DNA of 39,246 nt from contig JADYYD010000273.1 in NCBI GenBank assembly GCA_020853845.1, positions 1-39,246 on the forward strand. Reading direction: 5' to 3'. This DNA comes from Candidatus Melainabacteria bacterium (lineage in GTDB: Bacteria > Cyanobacteriota > Vampirovibrionia > Obscuribacterales > Obscuribacteraceae). This document shows, piece after piece, positions 2,783 to 32,717 of this stretch (positions within the stretch are counted from its first letter, which is position 1; each line of letters opens with the position of its first letter). Under the pieces are notes generated by a model. That model made no database searches and was not told where the DNA came from. It was given only the letters and a program-made list of their open reading frames with translations. The translations under genes and the position numbers were made by a program.

Positions 2783-4855
2783 CTACTGCGTCGAAGCAGT
2801 AACGCTCTTTTCTTTGTCGTGACTCAAGATGATGCGATTGCGTCCCTGTTTCTTTGCTTCGTAAAGACGTGCGTCCGCTGTTTGAATGAGTTCGTAAACC
2901 GATTCGCCGTCTTCAGGGAAGCTTGCCATGCCGCCTGAGAAGCTGACTTTGAATTCGCGCCCATCGTCGCCAGTGAAAATCATCTCTCTGAATTCGGCGA
3001 GCACGCGATTGATGGCTGCGTGCATTGTCTCTTTTGATTCACGCCTGAACCCGAGAATAAACTCTTCACCGCCCCAGCGTCCGCGCAAGTCTTCCACGCG
3101 AAAACGACGCGCCAGAAGCTGTCCGAGACCGGCAAGAACCTTGTCGCCGGCTAAGTGCCCATAGGTGTCATTGACGTTCTTAAATTTGTCCACATCGATA
3201 AGACAGATAGTGAAAACTGTTTTGTTTCTCTGCCCTTCCGCCAGCAATTGGGCAAGCTGCTCTGAAAACGCTCTGCGCAAGAGCAATCCCGTAATTGTGT
3301 CTTTATCTGATCTGTCTTTGAGCATGCGCGCCCGATCGAGGCGAACTTTAACGCGCGTCAGCAACTCTTCATTGACGACAGGCTTGGGAAGGTAGTCATC
3401 ACCGCCCGACCGAAAAGCTTCCAGGCGATTTTCGACGCCGGTTTGTCCGGTCAAGAAAACGATCGGCAAGTCTTGCCAGCGCGGAATCTGGCGCAGCATG
3501 CGGCAAACTTCGAATCCAGTGATGCCGGGCATCATTACGTCGAGCAGCAGCAATTCGGGCGGGAAGTCCTGCATTACTTCCAGGATTTTGTTGGGGTCTG
3601 TGAGAATGCGCACAATGACGCCTTCATTGCGAAGAATGAGCGCTATGGTGTTGGCGAAAAACTCATCGTCATCGACGAGCAAAATGCGCGGTCTGCCGCC
3701 GGTGCGAATGGACACCAGGTGCTCGACTGCTTTCTCGAGCGAGTCGGACTCCAGCGGTTTATCCAGATACAGTGAAGCGCCTGCGTGAGCCGCTTCCACC
3801 CTGTCTTTTACAAGCGCGTTGCCGGAGATAAATGCCAGAGGAAGAGTTTCATAACCGGGCAAGTTGCGCAATTCGCGTGCCAGTTTAAACGACTCGTCCG
3901 GAGCCTCTGCGTGCACGTTTACCAGAGCGGCATCCAGAGGAAGAATGCAGGCTCTGTCCAGCGCTTCTCTGAATGTCTTTGCGCGGACTATTTCGACCAG
4001 TCTTTGTTTGCCCAAGGCTTCGACGATATCAAGAAAACCGTCATCGGAATCAACCACCAAAATGCGTGCCATCGAAGCTGGTGCTTCCTGCCCTGCGGTT
4101 TCCTCTTCCTTGGAATTCACTACAGAAGCAACATCGGCAGCTTCTTTCTCACCAAGAATTTTGGCATCAGCCAACTTTCTTTCTACATCAGCCCAGAGTG
4201 CTGTTTGCTCTTTTGCCGGTTTTTCATGCATGGTTGCTGCTGCATTTTCTATGAAGAACATGCAATCAGAAACTTGCCTGAACCCGAGAGAACCGCCCGT
4301 GCCCTTGATTTTGTGCGCTTGCGAGCGCACTTCGGCAACCAGAGAGGCATCGTCAGGATCTTCTTTCGACTTGCTGATAGCGACAGCCAGGTCATCCAGT
4401 TTGGACGGGAGCATGCGTGCGTATTTGGAAACCAGTGCCAAAAACATGGTTTCGAAATCTTTCAACTTGCCTGATTGAGGGTCTTCCGGCGAAAGTTTGC
4501 CTTCCAATTGGGCGCCGAATACGAAGGGGATAACCGGCTTGTTGACTGCCAGAACAACGCCCAGCTCGCGCTCCAGGCGTTCTTTATTGGCGTGCAATTC
4601 AGGTTGGCTGGAGGCGATGTAGGTGACGGGTATTTTATTGCCGGTAGCGCGCAATGCCGTGAGCCAGTCCAGGCAATTGCTGTCCGGCAAAGGCGACCCG
4701 AGAATCACCATGTCCAGATTCTCTTTCTGGATAAAACCCTGCCCTTCTTTGCCGGTTTCCGCCTGAAAAACCTTATGCCCACGCCCCTCTAACACAGGCA
4801 CAATCAGCTTCAAGAAGGTTTTATCCTGCTCAACTAAGAGGATGTTTTTCCCCAT
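2783..4855 (-). CDS. Multi-receiver response regulator with Hpt and active-looking GGDEF (diguanylate cyclase)
   Basis: A 690-residue protein from the ATG at 4855 (AAGGA lies 9 bases upstream; a TTG directly before it is an alternative). Order: receiver-like domain (about 4-114), Hpt (about 145-235, H181 in HKIKGTGGSLG), second receiver (263-384), third receiver (390-504), GGDEF (519-680). The GGDEF keeps GGEEF at 595-599 and the inhibitory-site motif RVED at 586-589 with the usual five-residue gap, so it should make c-di-GMP with product feedback. Only the third receiver looks phosphorylatable (D439 in LLLDVMMPG). The first has Gly at the acceptor position (G53) and the second Asn (N313), although its acidic pocket and Lys (K366) remain. 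The architecture recalls PleD, expanded by an Hpt. No cognate histidine kinase is adjacent. It converges on the TPR operon. Confidence 0.93.
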   Translation of the reverse strand: MGKNILLVEQDKTFLKLIVPVLEGRGHKVFQAETGKEGQGFIQKENLDMVILGSPLPDSNCLDWLTALRATGNKIPVTYIASSQPELHANKERLERELGVVLAVNKPVIPFVFGAQLEGKLSPEDPQSGKLKDFETMFLALVSKYARMLPSKLDDLAVAISKSKEDPDDASLVAEVRSQAHKIKGTGGSLGFRQVSDCMFFIENAAATMHEKPAKEQTALWADVERKLADAKILGEKEAADVASVVNSKEEETAGQEAPASMARILVVDSDDGFLDIVEALGKQRLVEIVRAKTFREALDRACILPLDAALVNVHAEAPDESFKLARELRNLPGYETLPLAFISGNALVKDRVEAAHAGASLYLDKPLESDSLEKAVEHLVSIRTGGRPRILLVDDDEFFANTIALILRNEGVIVRILTDPNKILEVMQDFPPELLLLDVMMPGITGFEVCRMLRQIPRWQDLPIVFLTGQTGVENRLEAFRSGGDDYLPKPVVNEELLTRVKVRLDRARMLKDRSDKDTITGLLLRRAFSEQLAQLLAEGQRNKTVFTICLIDVDKFKNVNDTYGHLAGDKVLAGLGQLLARRFRVEDLRGRWGGEEFILGFRRESKETMHAAINRVLAEFREMIFTGDDGREFKVSFSGGMASFPEDGESVYELIQTADARLYEAKKQGRNRIILSHDKEKSVTASTQ

Positions 4856-4986
4856 CAATACCGGTCCTTACGCCCTTTCCTGAGTCAAACTATACCCAGC
4901 CTGCGCTCATCCTCCGCGAAACGTCGGATAAGCCGCGTAAAAAAGGGTACAGTTCCACTGCCGAAAGACAAGATTACCGATATAAA

Positions 4987-6695: not shown

Positions 6696-8192
6696 TTATC
6701 GCTTTCTCGGATTGGGCCAGTTCATTTCCGTGCAGGCATCGTCAAAGCTGGTGCGCATGCGGCTGCAATACTGCAATGCAATGGAAATCTGCTCGAGCTT
6801 CATGATATTGTCCCGCAAAAGTTGAACGCAAGTTATGGACGCCTCGAATGTCTTCTCGTCGAGCTTGTTGGCGGCGCCCAGAATTTTGGTAATGTCGCCA
6901 CCATGTTTTTTGCGGACTTCATTGGCAGTTTGAATATCATTGTCGGTAAGCACTCCGGCGCGCACTAGAAGATCGAGCGCGTCCTTCACCGAGACCATTT
7001 GTTGTCCTTGCTGCCCGCCCGCTGCGCCGCCGCCACCGCCTGCGCCCGGTCGGGCGCCATCAGCCAATTCTTGCATCGCCTGACTGACGAATTGTTCGAT
7101 GGTTTTGCCTTTGCTGTGATATTTCGCAAGTACGCGAGCAGCGTCTCTGGAGCTTATCTGCTTTTCTTCAACCAGGTCCTGCATTCTTATGGCAGCATCG
7201 AGCGACTGGCTGTTCAGCAGTCCTGATTCGAGCAGTAAATTATTGAGGGTGACGTCTGTGCGTTTTGAAATCAAACCCATGTCTATGGGCATGGGCGCCG
7301 GTCCGCTGGCTGGAGCAGGCGGTGCGGGCGGCGCCGCCTGGGGCTGCGGCCAGCCTGGTTGTTGAGCGCCCGGAAATTGTTGTTGAGGATAACCAGGCGC
7401 CGGTGGCATTCCCGGATAGGCGCCGGGAGCCATGCCTGGTTGCATCTGCGGCGGATAAGCCGGTTGCGGCGGCGGGTATGCCGGCTGAGGCGGATAGCCC
7501 GGTTGCGGAGGCATGCCCGGGTAGCCGCCCGGTGCCATGCCTGGCGGCGGGTAGTTCGGCGGATAAGCCGGTTGAGCCGGGGCCGGCGGTGCCATATGTG
7601 GTGGCATCTGCTGCGGCATCGGCGGCACCGGTGGTGGTGGCGGCGGCGGTGGTGGCGCTGCGTGCTGTTCCGGACGTGGCAGAGGGTCGGGATAGACAGA
7701 CGACTGCGAGGGCATGCCGCTTTGCGTGTTTCTGGACAGACTGTCTGAAACGCGCTGCTTCCAGATGTCGTCCGGTTTTTTAACTTCTTCTTGCTGTGCG
7801 GCCAGCGAATCCGCGGTCGGTCGCAATTCTTCAGGAATAAATCCGGGAGCGCCTGCAGCCGCGCCCGCACCCTGACCGGTCGACATGATGATCATCTCGA
7901 GCACGAAGTCCAGTTCGGAAGGTGAAAATCCCTGGCTGAAGAGCATGGAGTTGTCGCCGCCGGCTTCGTCATATAGAGTCCAGATTGGCAGGTCTGCGCC
8001 TTTCTCCCAGAGCACCATGAGCAGAAAAGAGCGACCGCCTTGAGCATACGGCAGCTCTATGGTGGTGCTGCGCCTGCGCTCGCACTCGTCAAACATCGTG
8101 CGCACCAGTTTCATATTCGGCTGCTGCATCTCTTGCGGCAACCTCATGTTTTTGGGCGGCTCTTCCTGTCTCTGTTGTTTGGGCTTAAACAT
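6696..8192 (-). CDS. Proline-rich modular protein with MshEN-like C-terminal helices (paralogue 1)
   Basis: A 498-residue protein from the ATG at 8192. The frame continues upstream, but this start matches the paralogue at 30141 (MFKPK versus MYKPK). Three parts are visible. An N-terminal domain (about 25-105) shares ELPY and IWTLYDE with the paralogue. A low-complexity Pro/Gly/Tyr/Ala-rich tract (about 178-300) includes a run of nine prolines. A C-terminal helical region (305-498) contains LLLESGLL...LDAAIRMQ (316-338) and a second block LLVRAGVL...KKHGGDITKIL. The helical blocks follow the MshEN/T2SSE_N spacing of Leu, Gly and Gln, but the Gly after the first Leu is Asn and the preceding Arg is missing. 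No signal peptide is seen. Function unknown; it could be an adaptor that recognises a nucleotide or a pilus/secretion component. Confidence 0.85.
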   Translation of the reverse strand: MFKPKQQRQEEPPKNMRLPQEMQQPNMKLVRTMFDECERRRSTTIELPYAQGGRSFLLMVLWEKGADLPIWTLYDEAGGDNSMLFSQGFSPSELDFVLEMIIMSTGQGAGAAAGAPGFIPEELRPTADSLAAQQEEVKKPDDIWKQRVSDSLSRNTQSGMPSQSSVYPDPLPRPEQHAAPPPPPPPPPVPPMPQQMPPHMAPPAPAQPAYPPNYPPPGMAPGGYPGMPPQPGYPPQPAYPPPQPAYPPQMQPGMAPGAYPGMPPAPGYPQQQFPGAQQPGWPQPQAAPPAPPAPASGPAPMPIDMGLISKRTDVTLNNLLLESGLLNSQSLDAAIRMQDLVEEKQISSRDAARVLAKYHSKGKTIEQFVSQAMQELADGARPGAGGGGGAAGGQQGQQMVSVKDALDLLVRAGVLTDNDIQTANEVRKKHGGDITKILGAANKLDEKTFEASITCVQLLRDNIMKLEQISIALQYCSRMRTSFDDACTEMNWPNPRKR

Positions 8193-14198: not shown

Positions 14199-16202
14199 CT
14201 AAACCATTTCGTCAGCCATTAGTTGTATCACTTCTGCATCTGAAAGTAGATGGGCTGCACGCCATTTTATGTAGTCCGGCATCTTGACGGCGTCGAAGAG
14301 CTGCTGCAAAGTAGCCGCGTTTTCGAGCGTGGAAACCAGCGTTCGCATGCCGTTTTTTTCCTCTTCGGTGAGGTCGGTTCGGCGTGAAAAAAGCTTTTCC
14401 ATTTGCTCTTCCGGATTGACAGAGATGATGCAGTCGTTCAGTCTGAGCATGCGCTTTGCCACCACCATATGGTCTTCCGCAACTGCAGCGTCCATAAGAC
14501 AGCGTTCCAGCGACAGAGGTGTCTTCTCCTTGATAATCACCTGAGTGCCGCGCGAAAAGCCGCGTTCTACAAAACTGAATTTGCCTTCCTTGTAGGAAAT
14601 TAGGAAATCTACGAGCGCCTCGCGTCCTGTCAATTCACCGAAGGCGACTTCCAGCGGCTTGCCGTCCTGGAAAAGCATTCTCAATGAATCCTGCCCTTCC
14701 TGACTGACTGTAAGTTCGCCTGTCTTATTGCTGACGGCCAGTGATTGCAGAAGACCGAATCCGCCCAGGACGCCAAGCTCTCCTTTGATAGCAGCTTTGG
14801 AATCTGTTTTTTTATAATCGGACGGGACTTCTTTGGCCGTCTTGATGCTTCCCATTCCGAATTCTCTTTCTGCGAACATCAAGGCTGAATACGCACTGGC
14901 TAGCAGCGACGAAAGATTTTCGCCTTCTTGCGGATAGGAAGAAATGCCGACGCACGGTTTCATTTTTACATCCAGTCCTTGAGCAGCCATGTACTGCGGG
15001 AAGGCTGCGACGATGCGGCTTGCCACTTGCTTGGCATTGCCCGGATCAGCCCAGCCCAGCAAAATCGCCATCGTGTTCGAGGTATACCTGACTGTGTAGT
15101 CGGTGTAGCGTGAAAGTTTGTTGATCAAAATTTCGTCGGTTCTCACAGAAGCGCTTATGGCATCTGCCAGGGCTTTGATTTTTCTGTCGCGCAAAACGTG
15201 GTCTTCGCTGTCGCTCACTTTTATGCTGACCAGGACGACCGAGTACGGATCTTCGTTGGCGGAGCCATTTTTCGCGGAGTCGAAGGTGGGCATCAGGTGC
15301 TCACCTACGAACGATACCGATAGTAGTCCGGTCAACGGGTCTAAATACTTGGCGACAGGGTCGACTTCTGTGCCACCACCTGTGATGTCAGACCTGGGCG
15401 ATGTGTGACGCACATCCACTTTCTTCTTCATTAGGGCAGGAATACGATCGCTCGTCGCCTCCTGAATTTGCATGTCGATCACAATCTCTTTGGACAAGCG
15501 CCGATTTTCGACGAGCAATTGTTTGATCGCCGTGCAAAGCTCTTTCAAGTCGCCGATTTCATAGTCGAATCCGGACAACGCATGCTCGAAGTCACCGGTT
15601 TGCTTCACCAACATAGCAGTGCGCAGGCGCTGCGCCATGCGGCCGATTGGAAAAGCCAACCAGATGTAGCTGCCTATCCAGGCTGCCACGAATGCGCTGG
15701 AGATGGCAAGAAAAATAGGCAGTGAAGAAGATCCAGGCGCAATCAGCCTCTGGTCCAAATAGTCATTTCTAAAGCCGGCATGAAAAGTCCCGTACTGTGT
15801 GTTGCTGGTGGCGTCGAAAAAGCGCTCGCCTTTGTATGTGTATATGTGAGGCGTAGGGGTAAACTTTTTTATCGGCGGCGGCGGCATCGGTGCGTTTTTT
15901 TCGATCTTGCCGGCCGGGCTGGCGAAGAACATCCATACACAACCTTTCTTCCTGGCTTCATCGATAAAGTCGAATCGCTCCCAGTCGGCTTTCGGATTCT
16001 TACGTGCTGAAAGTTCTCGCACGAAGCTGAGCGCGTTCTTCGGCAGGACATGGTCTTGATAGTAGCAATCGAATGCCAGCGCCACGGCAAAGACGAAAGC
16101 AACAAGGCTGAACATGCGCAGCGCATAGGAAGTGAGAATCTGCTTGGCATAACCGCTTGCTAAAGCGGCTTCGGTTTTCCGGCTGGTTGCAGTCTTCGCC
16201 AC
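14199..16202 (-). CDS. Membrane sensor with degenerate GGDEF and DUF4388 (PatA-like) domains
   Basis: A 667-residue protein from a GTG at 16202. Two membrane helices (about 26-45 and 161-184) bracket an extracytoplasmic domain of about 115 residues that is Pro-rich in its middle, and a HAMP-like linker follows. Residues 287-455 form a GGDEF-fold domain starting with DPLTGLLS and keeping the late GISSYPQEG segment, but the GGDEF signature is replaced by TSNTM (374-378) and the substrate-binding block is altered, so cyclase activity is unlikely. Residues 470-555 match DUF4388, the N-terminal domain of cyanobacterial PatA, here placed after the GGDEF (GELGVLGGFGLLQSLAV, then LTVSQEGQ). A helical tail ends the protein. 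Likely a signal sensor acting through protein contacts or residual nucleotide binding. Confidence 0.88.
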   Translation of the reverse strand: MAKTATSRKTEAALASGYAKQILTSYALRMFSLVAFVFAVALAFDCYYQDHVLPKNALSFVRELSARKNPKADWERFDFIDEARKKGCVWMFFASPAGKIEKNAPMPPPPIKKFTPTPHIYTYKGERFFDATSNTQYGTFHAGFRNDYLDQRLIAPGSSSLPIFLAISSAFVAAWIGSYIWLAFPIGRMAQRLRTAMLVKQTGDFEHALSGFDYEIGDLKELCTAIKQLLVENRRLSKEIVIDMQIQEATSDRIPALMKKKVDVRHTSPRSDITGGGTEVDPVAKYLDPLTGLLSVSFVGEHLMPTFDSAKNGSANEDPYSVVLVSIKVSDSEDHVLRDRKIKALADAISASVRTDEILINKLSRYTDYTVRYTSNTMAILLGWADPGNAKQVASRIVAAFPQYMAAQGLDVKMKPCVGISSYPQEGENLSSLLASAYSALMFAEREFGMGSIKTAKEVPSDYKKTDSKAAIKGELGVLGGFGLLQSLAVSNKTGELTVSQEGQDSLRMLFQDGKPLEVAFGELTGREALVDFLISYKEGKFSFVERGFSRGTQVIIKEKTPLSLERCLMDAAVAEDHMVVAKRMLRLNDCIISVNPEEQMEKLFSRRTDLTEEEKNGMRTLVSTLENAATLQQLFDAVKMPDYIKWRAAHLLSDAEVIQLMADEMV

Positions 16203-30140: not shown

Positions 30141-31868
30141 ATGTACAAACCGAAGCGCCAGGTTCGCCTGGACCCGATGAAATATCCGCCCCGCATGAGC
30201 GACCTGAAGAATTTGCTTCAGGAAGCAACAGTCAATAAGGGTTGCACGGTCGAACTTCCTTTTTCGGCGATGAACAGCAAGTGGAGCTTGACCGTTCGCT
30301 CGGAAATCGGCGGCTCGCAGGAGCCGATGTGGACACTTTATGAAGGCGAGGGCTCCAGTTCGAGAGTGGTGTGGAGCACGCCTTTCGACGATGTCGAACT
30401 TTTGCAGGACGTATTGCATCTGTCTTTGCCTCAAGAAATTTCCAAAGTAGCAATGCCGCCCGAAGTTCAGGCCCCGGCGCCCAAGCCGGAAGCTCAGCCG
30501 AACGGGCAGGGGCTTGCCGATGAGCAGCCGCATTCATTTGCTGCATTCGATAAATCCAGCGCGCTTATGCGTGAATCTAACACGCGGATGCCCGCAGCTC
30601 CCCAGCCGCAGGCGCCACCCGCGCCGGCACCGGCGCCCCCTCAGCCACAGCCGCAGCCGCAAATGCCCGCCGGCTACCCGCAGCAGCAGATGCCACCCGG
30701 CTATCCGCAACAAATGCCGCCCGGTTACGGCTACCCGCCCGGCTATCCTCAGCAAATGCCTCCGGGTTACGGTTATCCGCCCGGTTATGGCTATCCACCC
30801 GGCTACCCTCAGCAGATGCCGCCCGGCTATGGTTATCCGCCCGGGTACGGCTATCCGCCCGGCTATGGTTACCCGCCCGGCTATCCGCAGCAACAGATGC
30901 CGCCCGGCTACCCGCAACAACAGATGCCGCCCGGGTATCCCCAACAGCAGCAGGGTTATCCGCAGCAGCAGATGCCGCAGGATCCCAATCAGAACTACCA
31001 GGGGCAACCGGCTCCAGGCGCATCCGGCGCCTATCCGGGTCAAATGAATCCCGGCGTATCAGGAACATACCCTGCAGCGTCTCCTCAACAATCCGGTGCT
31101 TATCCGTCCGTCGAGTTCGCATCAGGCAGCTATCCTACAGTCGGCGGCGACATGCTAGCCAAACGACCGAATTTTCTGCTCGGTCACTTTCTCGTAGAGG
31201 CCGGCTTGATTCCGGAGCCTACTTTGGACGCGGCTTTGCAATTGCAGGGCATGGTCAAGAGTGGAACGCTCAATGCCAAACAAGCCGGAGAAGCGGTTCG
31301 GCGGGCGCACACTCGCGGCGGCAAGGTGGACACTAATACGTTTACGGCAACGCCAGCCAAAAAGATCGATTCCGGCGATGTTGAAGCAACGGCTCCGCCG
31401 CTTGGACAAGTACTTATAGAAGCAGGTTTGATAAGCGTGCCTGTGTTGAAGGCTGCGTTGAATTTGCAGGAAGTTGTTCGCACCGGTGCACTTACGCGCG
31501 AGGAGGCTCTGGAAGCCTTCATCCGTGAGCATTACGGAGTAGATGCGAAGAGTGCGCGCAAGGCTATCGCCAAGAATTCGATGGATTCGAAAGTGATTGG
31601 TTTGCTCGTCAAAGCCGGTTTGCTGACTGAGCAAGATGTGCAGACAGCTCAGACGGTCAAGAAAAAACACGGCGGAGACGTTGTGAAAATTCTTACGGCA
31701 GCAGGAAAGCTCGACAAAGTCCTGCTTGGCGCCGCCAATCAGTGTCACGAATTGATCGAGCAAAAGCGCCTCAAAGTGGAACAAGCAATCATCGCCTTGC
31801 ACTATTGCGAACGCATGAGAGTTTCATTTGATGACGCCGTAGAAGAAATGGGCTGGGAAAAACCATAA
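30141..31868 (+). CDS. Proline-rich modular protein with MshEN-like C-terminal helices (paralogue 2)
   Basis: A 575-residue protein from the ATG at 30141, paralogous to 6696-8192. The N-terminal domain (about 20-100) shares ELPF and MWTLYEG with paralogue 1. A disordered tract rich in Pro, Tyr, Gly and Gln (about 150-330) contains the PPGY repeat array. The C-terminal helical region (340-575) has two segments that fit the MshEN spacing LG-x2-L-x3-G-x-[LI]-x4-L-x3-L-x2-Q exactly: 347-369 (opening [11 protein letters not shown]) and 421-443 ([11 protein letters not shown]). A third, weaker unit follows ([13 protein letters not shown]). The Arg that usually precedes this motif is absent in both. 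MshEN domains bind c-di-GMP in secretion and pilus ATPases, but no ATPase domain is present here. The epimerase-like gene follows after 6 bases. Confidence 0.88.
30669..30980 (+). repeat. Coding [12 protein letters not shown] tandem repeat tract
   Basis: About 104 codons inside the proline-rich gene encode repeated [10 protein letters not shown] and GYPPGY units. The DNA repeats are imperfect, with varied synonymous codons (CCCGGC, CCGGGT, CCCGGT), which suggests selection on the protein rather than recent expansion. Such tracts are usually disordered, can phase-separate or stick to surfaces, and vary in length between strains. Confidence 0.9.
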
Positions 31869-31874
31869 CCGGCA

Positions 31875-32717
31875 ATGGCATCAGAAAAGCGAAAACTTGT
31901 TTTTCTTGGCGTCGGTCAGGTGGCGCGCGCGCTTGCTGATAAAGCGAGAGAAACTAACCATGGCTATGAATTATACGGCACCACCCGCAGTGCCGAGCAT
32001 GCTGATGCGATCCGCAGTGCCGGCATCGAGCCAATTATAGTTCCAACGTTTTCCGGCAATGTGGAACAACTGACTGCTGCGATGAAGGATGCCTTTGTCG
32101 TGGCGACTTTTCCGCCCGAGCCTTCGTCCGATTGCCAGGCGTCAGTACTGGCGGAAGCGTCGGCCGCAAAAATCGTATATGTCTCGTCCACGTCGGTTTA
32201 CGGAAAAATAGAAGGAACAATCGACGAAAACACTTCTGAAGATTTCAAATCGCCACAATCCACGACTCGTTTGCAGGCTGAAGAGAGTTGGTGGTCGGTC
32301 GGGGCTACCATCATTCGCGCGCCTGGAATTTATGGACGTGGAAGTGGGCTCCACCACAGGCTTTTGAGCGGGCAGTATCGCTTGCCTGGCGATGGCGGCA
32401 ATTATGTTTCTCGAATTCACGTTGACGATTTGAGCGCGATGATACTTCGGGCTCTGGAAGTCGAGCCTGAAGAAAGTATCTATCTCGCCGGCGATCGATT
32501 GCCCACTACACACCGTGAGTTGGTCGAGTGGCTTGTAGAACGTCTTTCTCTGCCGTTCCCTGAGAGTGTTCCTTTGGAAAGTTGCCACTACACGCAGCAG
32601 GGAAACAGGAAAATCGATGCGCGAAAAATCGTTTCCGATCTAAAGATCGAACTCAAATATCCGACCTACAAGGAAGGATATGGCGAGGAACTGTCGAGAC
32701 TGCAGCGTACTTCCTGA
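31875..32717 (+). CDS. NAD-dependent epimerase/dehydratase-like protein (YeeZ-like)
   Basis: A 280-residue short-chain dehydrogenase-fold protein from the ATG at 31875. The N-terminal Rossmann motif is FLGVGQVARALA (about 10-21), shorter than the classical GxxGxxG form. Further family segments are YVSSTSVYGK (about 102-111), with the Tyr of SVYG, IIRAPGIYGRGSG and YVSRIHVDDLSAMI. The usual YxxxK catalytic pair is not evident, so dehydrogenase or dehydratase activity is uncertain. E. coli YeeZ has this overall shape, and its function is also unsettled. The gene follows paralogue 2 with a 6-base gap and is very likely translated from the same transcript. It converges on the TPR gene at 32752. 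Confidence 0.88.
   Translation: MASEKRKLVFLGVGQVARALADKARETNHGYELYGTTRSAEHADAIRSAGIEPIIVPTFSGNVEQLTAAMKDAFVVATFPPEPSSDCQASVLAEASAAKIVYVSSTSVYGKIEGTIDENTSEDFKSPQSTTRLQAEESWWSVGATIIRAPGIYGRGSGLHHRLLSGQYRLPGDGGNYVSRIHVDDLSAMILRALEVEPEESIYLAGDRLPTTHRELVEWLVERLSLPFPESVPLESCHYTQQGNRKIDARKIVSDLKIELKYPTYKEGYGEELSRLQRTS

Follow-up and report, generated by a model that had tools for sequence, protein, structure and literature searches.

MshEN-derived six-helix repeats in Obscuribacterales and a predicted c-di-GMP-circuit adaptor with two second-half motifs

MshEN domains, covered by NCBIfam model NF053729 and exemplified by MshE (5HTL) and by GSPII-A, GSPII-B and GSPII-C of PilF, carry two 24-residue half-motifs, LG...L...L..Q, in a four-helix bundle. 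PilF is a known case of tandem domains, and fusions to proteins other than ATPases are known too: NfrB-type glycosyltransferases and other fusion proteins use MshEN as a c-di-GMP input outside the pilus ATPase (PMC8669469, PMC5013675), and the largest gene count in the 2016 paper is 22, in Myxococcus xanthus (PMC5013675). With many such fusions on record, MshEN outside ATPases, which an earlier note on the DNA studied here had remarked on, is not a novelty in itself. In Thermus PilF, GSPII-B binds c-di-GMP at 6 nM with Lys/Leu in place of Arg, and GSPII-C binds with Pro at the Arg position of motif II (PMC11731258); GSPII-A shows measurable binding only once both Gln and Arg are restored (PMC12002112). 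Weak binding of cGAMP by MshEN is also documented (PMC5013675).

The locus described here lies in a stretch of 39,246 nucleotides, hereafter the window, from a Candidatus Obscuribacterales MAG (labelled G000, an 83%-complete assembly). The order Obscuribacterales is little studied and consists of environmental bacteria that are related to cyanobacteria but do not photosynthesise. A search of a literature library for Obscuribacter or Melainabacteria together with c-di-GMP or MshEN found nothing relevant. The protein of interest, P0001, has the following features.

30141 to 31868, plus strand: P0001, 575 aa, with an N-domain, a PPGY linker and three repeat units (translation; homologues in all 22 genomes sampled from the order)
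30141 to 30434, plus strand: N-domain, residues 1-98, predicted alpha-beta4-alpha, order-specific (AlphaFold2, profile search)
30435 to 31154, plus strand: disordered linker, residues 99-338, of Pro/Gln/Gly/Tyr composition and containing PPGY repeats (AlphaFold2 pLDDT < 50 over 109-342)
31176 to 31325, plus strand: u1, residues 346-395, type C, motif-2 hairpin plus helix 5 (unit HMM, 60 bits)
31179 to 31247, plus strand: u1 motif (pattern match)
31398 to 31535, plus strand: u2, residues 420-465, type C, second motif-2 half unit (unit HMM, 50 bits)
31401 to 31469, plus strand: u2 motif (pattern match)
31593 to 31850, plus strand: u3, residues 485-570, type D, whole but degenerate unit (unit HMM, 95 bits)

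Antisense reading frames exist at this position; the plus-strand frame is the one conserved across the order. As the earlier note had it, the pattern LG..L...G.[LI]....L...L..Q fits P0001 exactly at residues 347-369 and 421-443, and the Arg preceding LG is absent. No third exact site occurs, and Leu346 and Pro420 stand in the place of the Arg.

The repeats are best understood through paralogues of about 400 residues, which carry four tandem units at a spacing of about 98 residues, typically as A-B-C-D arrays. The repeat unit comprises 83 positions, an MshEN_N region with motif 1 and motif 2 followed by a helical hairpin that accounts for the last 30. In a profile search, unit positions 1-53 align to MshEN proteins in PDB: PilF at 1e-22, MshE at 1.5e-8 and PilB at 3e-7, PilF being matched in four stretches. 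An AlphaFold2 model of a four-unit paralogue has six helices per unit, in the order short-long-short-long-long-short, with mean pLDDT 84. For P0001 itself, NF053729, which describes the c-di-GMP motif of MshE-related proteins, scores 44.5 bits against a cut-off of 38 (E 9.7e-12, three stretches). A Pfam search of P0001 returned no family above cut-off, MshEN included, and no match to the T2SSE ATPase domain. A profile of u1 and u2 alone reached MshEN in PDB only marginally (best 0.006). Kinship with MshEN is supported by profile similarity, from NF053729 and from the unit profile against PDB. Foldseek of the whole P0001 model gave no significant PDB match, MshE (5htl_B) being hit at E 1.9, prob 0.77. 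Neither outcome that the earlier note had named as refuting the kinship, a predicted fold unlike MshEN or an absence of profile similarity, arose. Homology of the P0001 repeats to MshEN, and the architecture of the family, are well supported. Matches of PF10415 (Fumarase C C-terminus) on paralogues were set aside as false positives from helix-turn-helix similarity; on one protein (L072:3-1508, G000 contig C287) PF10415 scores above cut-off on MshEN arrays, a likely source of misannotation.

The three P0001 units differ in what they retain. By the unit HMM, u1 (340-397) covers positions 23-80, u2 (416-463) covers positions 25-72, and u3 (488-567) covers positions 4-83; only u3 is therefore a whole unit, while u1 and u2 are half units that retain motif 2 together with helix 5. 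Comparison of the P0001 units with the repeat unit by hhalign gave 1.1e-14, and 2.3e-19 for u3. The weaker third unit noted earlier at about 485-507 is real, and represents motif 1 of this complete but degenerate unit. The extension from motif 2 through helix 5 (unit positions 24-80) that marks the Obscuribacterales six-helix family is present in P0001. With position-specific profiles of the A-B-C-D array, type C scores highest for u1 (61.9 bits against 38.0 for the next type) and for u2 (49.6 against 34.5), and u3 falls into type D, so that P0001 reads C-half, C-half, D. The separation of about 50 residues claimed for the two motifs holds, with starts 74 residues apart and a gap of 51, but the two are not one MshEN pair spread out by an insertion, since both correspond to motif 2 plus the extension, aligning within unit positions 23-80, and both are type C. 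Two half-motifs in tandem with a 5-residue spacer, forming a 53-residue domain, are not found in u1 or u2; both halves occur together only in the degenerate u3. AlphaFold2 predicts helices at the expected places in P0001, with pLDDT of only about 77-83 in u1 and u2 and disorder over residues 396-414 between them.

Used as a query against the window's genome, the C-terminal region of P0001 returned 32 matches in many genes; NF053729 returned 61. Matches of the P0001 type occur in all 22 genomes of the order, the window's own included, at up to about 40 per genome, and in none of the 9 genomes sampled from other families within the class. Counted by hand in the sequences read from the 83%-complete assembly, about 24 genes of the window's genome encode the six-helix unit, and by hand count roughly nine further genes, T2SSE ATPases among them, encode plain MshEN motifs. 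Among the matches listed in 146 genomes of the phylum, the full-length unit (1-83) was found only in the window's genome; those listed in other phylum genomes cover mainly positions 1-55, mostly in proteins the size of pilus ATPases, with a few extending to 72-79. Among the genomes sampled, the full six-helix unit appears only in Obscuribacterales.

Several proteins found in these searches have further architectures. A HisKA_3 histidine kinase is fused to three MshEN-derived units (L070:1117-2760, G000 contig C23), a paralogue (L074) joins such units to TPRs, and another protein (L085, G000 contig C102) combines one unit with a DnaJ-like region just under the Pfam cut-off. A very long MshEN protein, with an open frame of 1705 aa, contains two Pfam MshEN stretches (L086:1420-6000, G000 contig C518). 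A deep-branching member of the phylum encodes tandem MshEN_N-like units spaced by about 69 residues, with no extra hairpin (G031 contig C3:39970-40554).

The earlier note described two fused partners, an N-terminal domain and a PPGY-rich tract. The linker is disordered, and the N-domain, with pLDDT of about 77-91 over residues 11-100, has no relative in Pfam or PDB and no significant Foldseek match. Its profile (A5) finds 1-15 copies in each of the 22 genomes of the order and none in two samples from outside it, of 9 and 145 genomes. The N-domain is joined to MshEN-derived units in three proteins of the window's genome. Most other copies there precede a PATAN (DUF4388)-like region and a GGDEF-like domain in which the GGDEF motif itself has disappeared, a loss read by eye and consistent with weak GGDEF profile matches. 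These proteins form an order-specific N-domain/PATAN/dead-GGDEF set (L115-L124; G000 contigs C172, C353, C446, C371, C19, C257, C230, C254 and C302), with the catalytic GGDEF replaced, for example by HFETFDFA. Two relatives (L054 and L055) have a related N-domain, then a Ser/Thr kinase domain, then a C-C-D array as in P0001.

Three further genes of the window are listed alongside P0001.

31875 to 32717, plus strand: NAD(P)-binding Rossmann/epimerase-like gene (Pfam PF01370/PF03807)
6696 to 8192, minus strand: sister gene (paralog2) combining the same N-domain and a Pro-rich linker with one half unit of type C and then a D unit (profiles; start codon near 8192)
2783 to 4858, minus strand: diguanylate cyclase of the response-regulator/Hpt kind that carries GGEEF and RxxD and neighbours the sister gene (Pfam, motif check, synteny)

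The Rossmann gene starts 6 nt past the P0001 stop, and most homologous loci preserve this arrangement. The sister gene shares its strand with the diguanylate cyclase in the window, and in five other genera it directly adjoins an apparently intact diguanylate cyclase, as judged by synteny and motif check. Profile searches find 33 GGDEF domains and 2 EAL domains in the window's genome. Elsewhere in the window (14199-16202), a membrane-type protein carries DUF4388 behind a weak GGDEF that appears to be degenerate; its relatives recur in the genome.

These domain fusions and neighbours point to a role in the c-di-GMP network, and P0001 is most likely an adaptor of a c-di-GMP circuit, a prediction against which it counts that P0001 itself has no adjoining cyclase. 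Conservation adds detail at the putative ligand positions. Across 21 homologues (orthologues plus the two kinase-fused relatives), the L, G, L, L and Q positions of u1 and u2 are each kept in 19-21 sequences. Among the ligand-facing residues of u1, G348 and Q369 are kept in 21/21 and L347 in 19/21; for u2 the figures are 21/21 for L440 and Q443, and 19/21 for L421 and G422. In the same homologues the ligand positions of u3, an internal control, have drifted. Folding or protein contacts could also account for the conservation of u1 and u2. The missing Arg is not decisive, since its replacements, Leu and Pro, are those found in motif II of GSPII-B and GSPII-C, which bind.

Together u1 and u2 supply 10 of 10 key residues, and a disordered stretch (396-414) lies within the 51-residue connection between them, so that a composite u1:u2 site is sterically conceivable; as a putative c-di-GMP site it is plausible. 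The u1 and u2 hairpins, with the partly disordered linker between them, would pack like the two halves of MshEN_N, or alternatively against the u1/u2 hairpins of a second P0001 copy, and the packed pair would jointly hold one c-di-GMP. In such a protein u3 would be a structural or docking cap, and ligand binding would alter the contacts of the N-domain tethered through the flexible PPGY linker. As a whole, this picture of a soluble c-di-GMP-network adaptor, with composite site, cap and ligand-switched N-domain contacts, is our favoured reading, held tentatively and somewhat short of probable. Taken with the other fusions of the N-domain, it would make the array one of several interchangeable N-domain modules.

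It is also quite possible, if on the doubtful side, that the repeats no longer bind nucleotides and serve purely as a structural alpha-helical scaffold for protein-protein contacts, with LG and Q kept for packing. We scored the L, G, L, L and Q positions of each half in 83 full units from proteins of the window's genome, plain MshEN included. The motif-2 Gln is kept in 57 of the 83 and the motif-1 Gln in only 5; by the standard of GSPII-A, most single units should therefore bind weakly or not at all. This family-wide loss favours a scaffold, as do the decay of u3 and several array units at ligand positions, the non-binding precedents of XpsE (PMC5013675) and PilF GSPII-A (PMC12002112), and a designed helical toroid as the sole Foldseek match of the four-unit array model at E <= 0.001. 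The pattern of loss is nevertheless unlike random decay: the largest group of units (32/83) keeps 9 of the 10 key positions, the motif-1 Gln being the usual loss at the top of the list, and both Gln residues of u1 and u2 are kept across the order while those of u3 are not. For P0001, binding at a composite site and loss of binding appear about equally likely.

A different or asymmetric guanine-containing ligand, such as cGAMP or pGpG, would explain the one-sided Gln replacement, in which the motif-1 position is systematically S/A/G/T and the remainder is intact; the weak cGAMP binding noted above (PMC5013675) lends this some precedent, but the 33 GGDEF domains point to c-di-GMP and P0001 has both Gln residues, making such a ligand improbable. 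Chance matches in an ordinary helical repeat protein, suggested by the low-complexity linker, the Leu/Ala/Gln-rich helices and the lack of a Pfam match above cut-off, are a negligible prospect given that 200,000 shuffles of residues 338-575 produced not a single instance of the pattern (2e-6 expected from composition per P0001 C-terminal region), that NF053729 scores above cut-off, and that MshEN proteins lead the PDB profile matches.

The adaptor reading can be extended to a broader proposal, which we regard as rather unlikely in its entirety: that Obscuribacterales turned the MshEN fold into a six-helix repeat with asymmetric sites, used by at least some two dozen proteins in each genome, and that P0001 would carry a split, composite c-di-GMP site in which two copies of the second half-motif, spaced by 74 residues, restore the full set of contacts, acting as a conformational or dimerisation switch between the N-domain and its partners. 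The size of this lineage-specific set of MshEN-derived arrays, in a genome with 33 GGDEF domains, suggests that the c-di-GMP network has an unusually large complement of receptors. Single ligand positions vary from unit to unit, which makes the family a natural mutational series for the requirements of MshEN binding, and P0001 makes the split-site hypothesis directly testable with one construct.

New here are the repeat of six helices, the expansion of that repeat throughout the order, and its splitting into half units. Compared with MshEN, the Obscuribacterales bundle has a long-short helical hairpin in place of the alpha/beta MshEN_C subdomain, its units stand in tandem, up to four of them at intervals of about 98 residues, with the motif-1 Gln mostly lost, and P0001 is cut down to two motif-2 halves and a decayed unit. 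The tandem MshEN_N-like proteins of deep-branching phylum members, of the type on G031 contig C3, resemble these arrays in their repetition; they match approximately unit positions 1-55, whereas the full 1-83 occurs in none of the sampled genomes outside the order. In contrast to the NfrB-type glycosyltransferases, P0001 has no enzyme domain, and joins its MshEN-derived units instead to an order-specific N-domain and a disordered linker.
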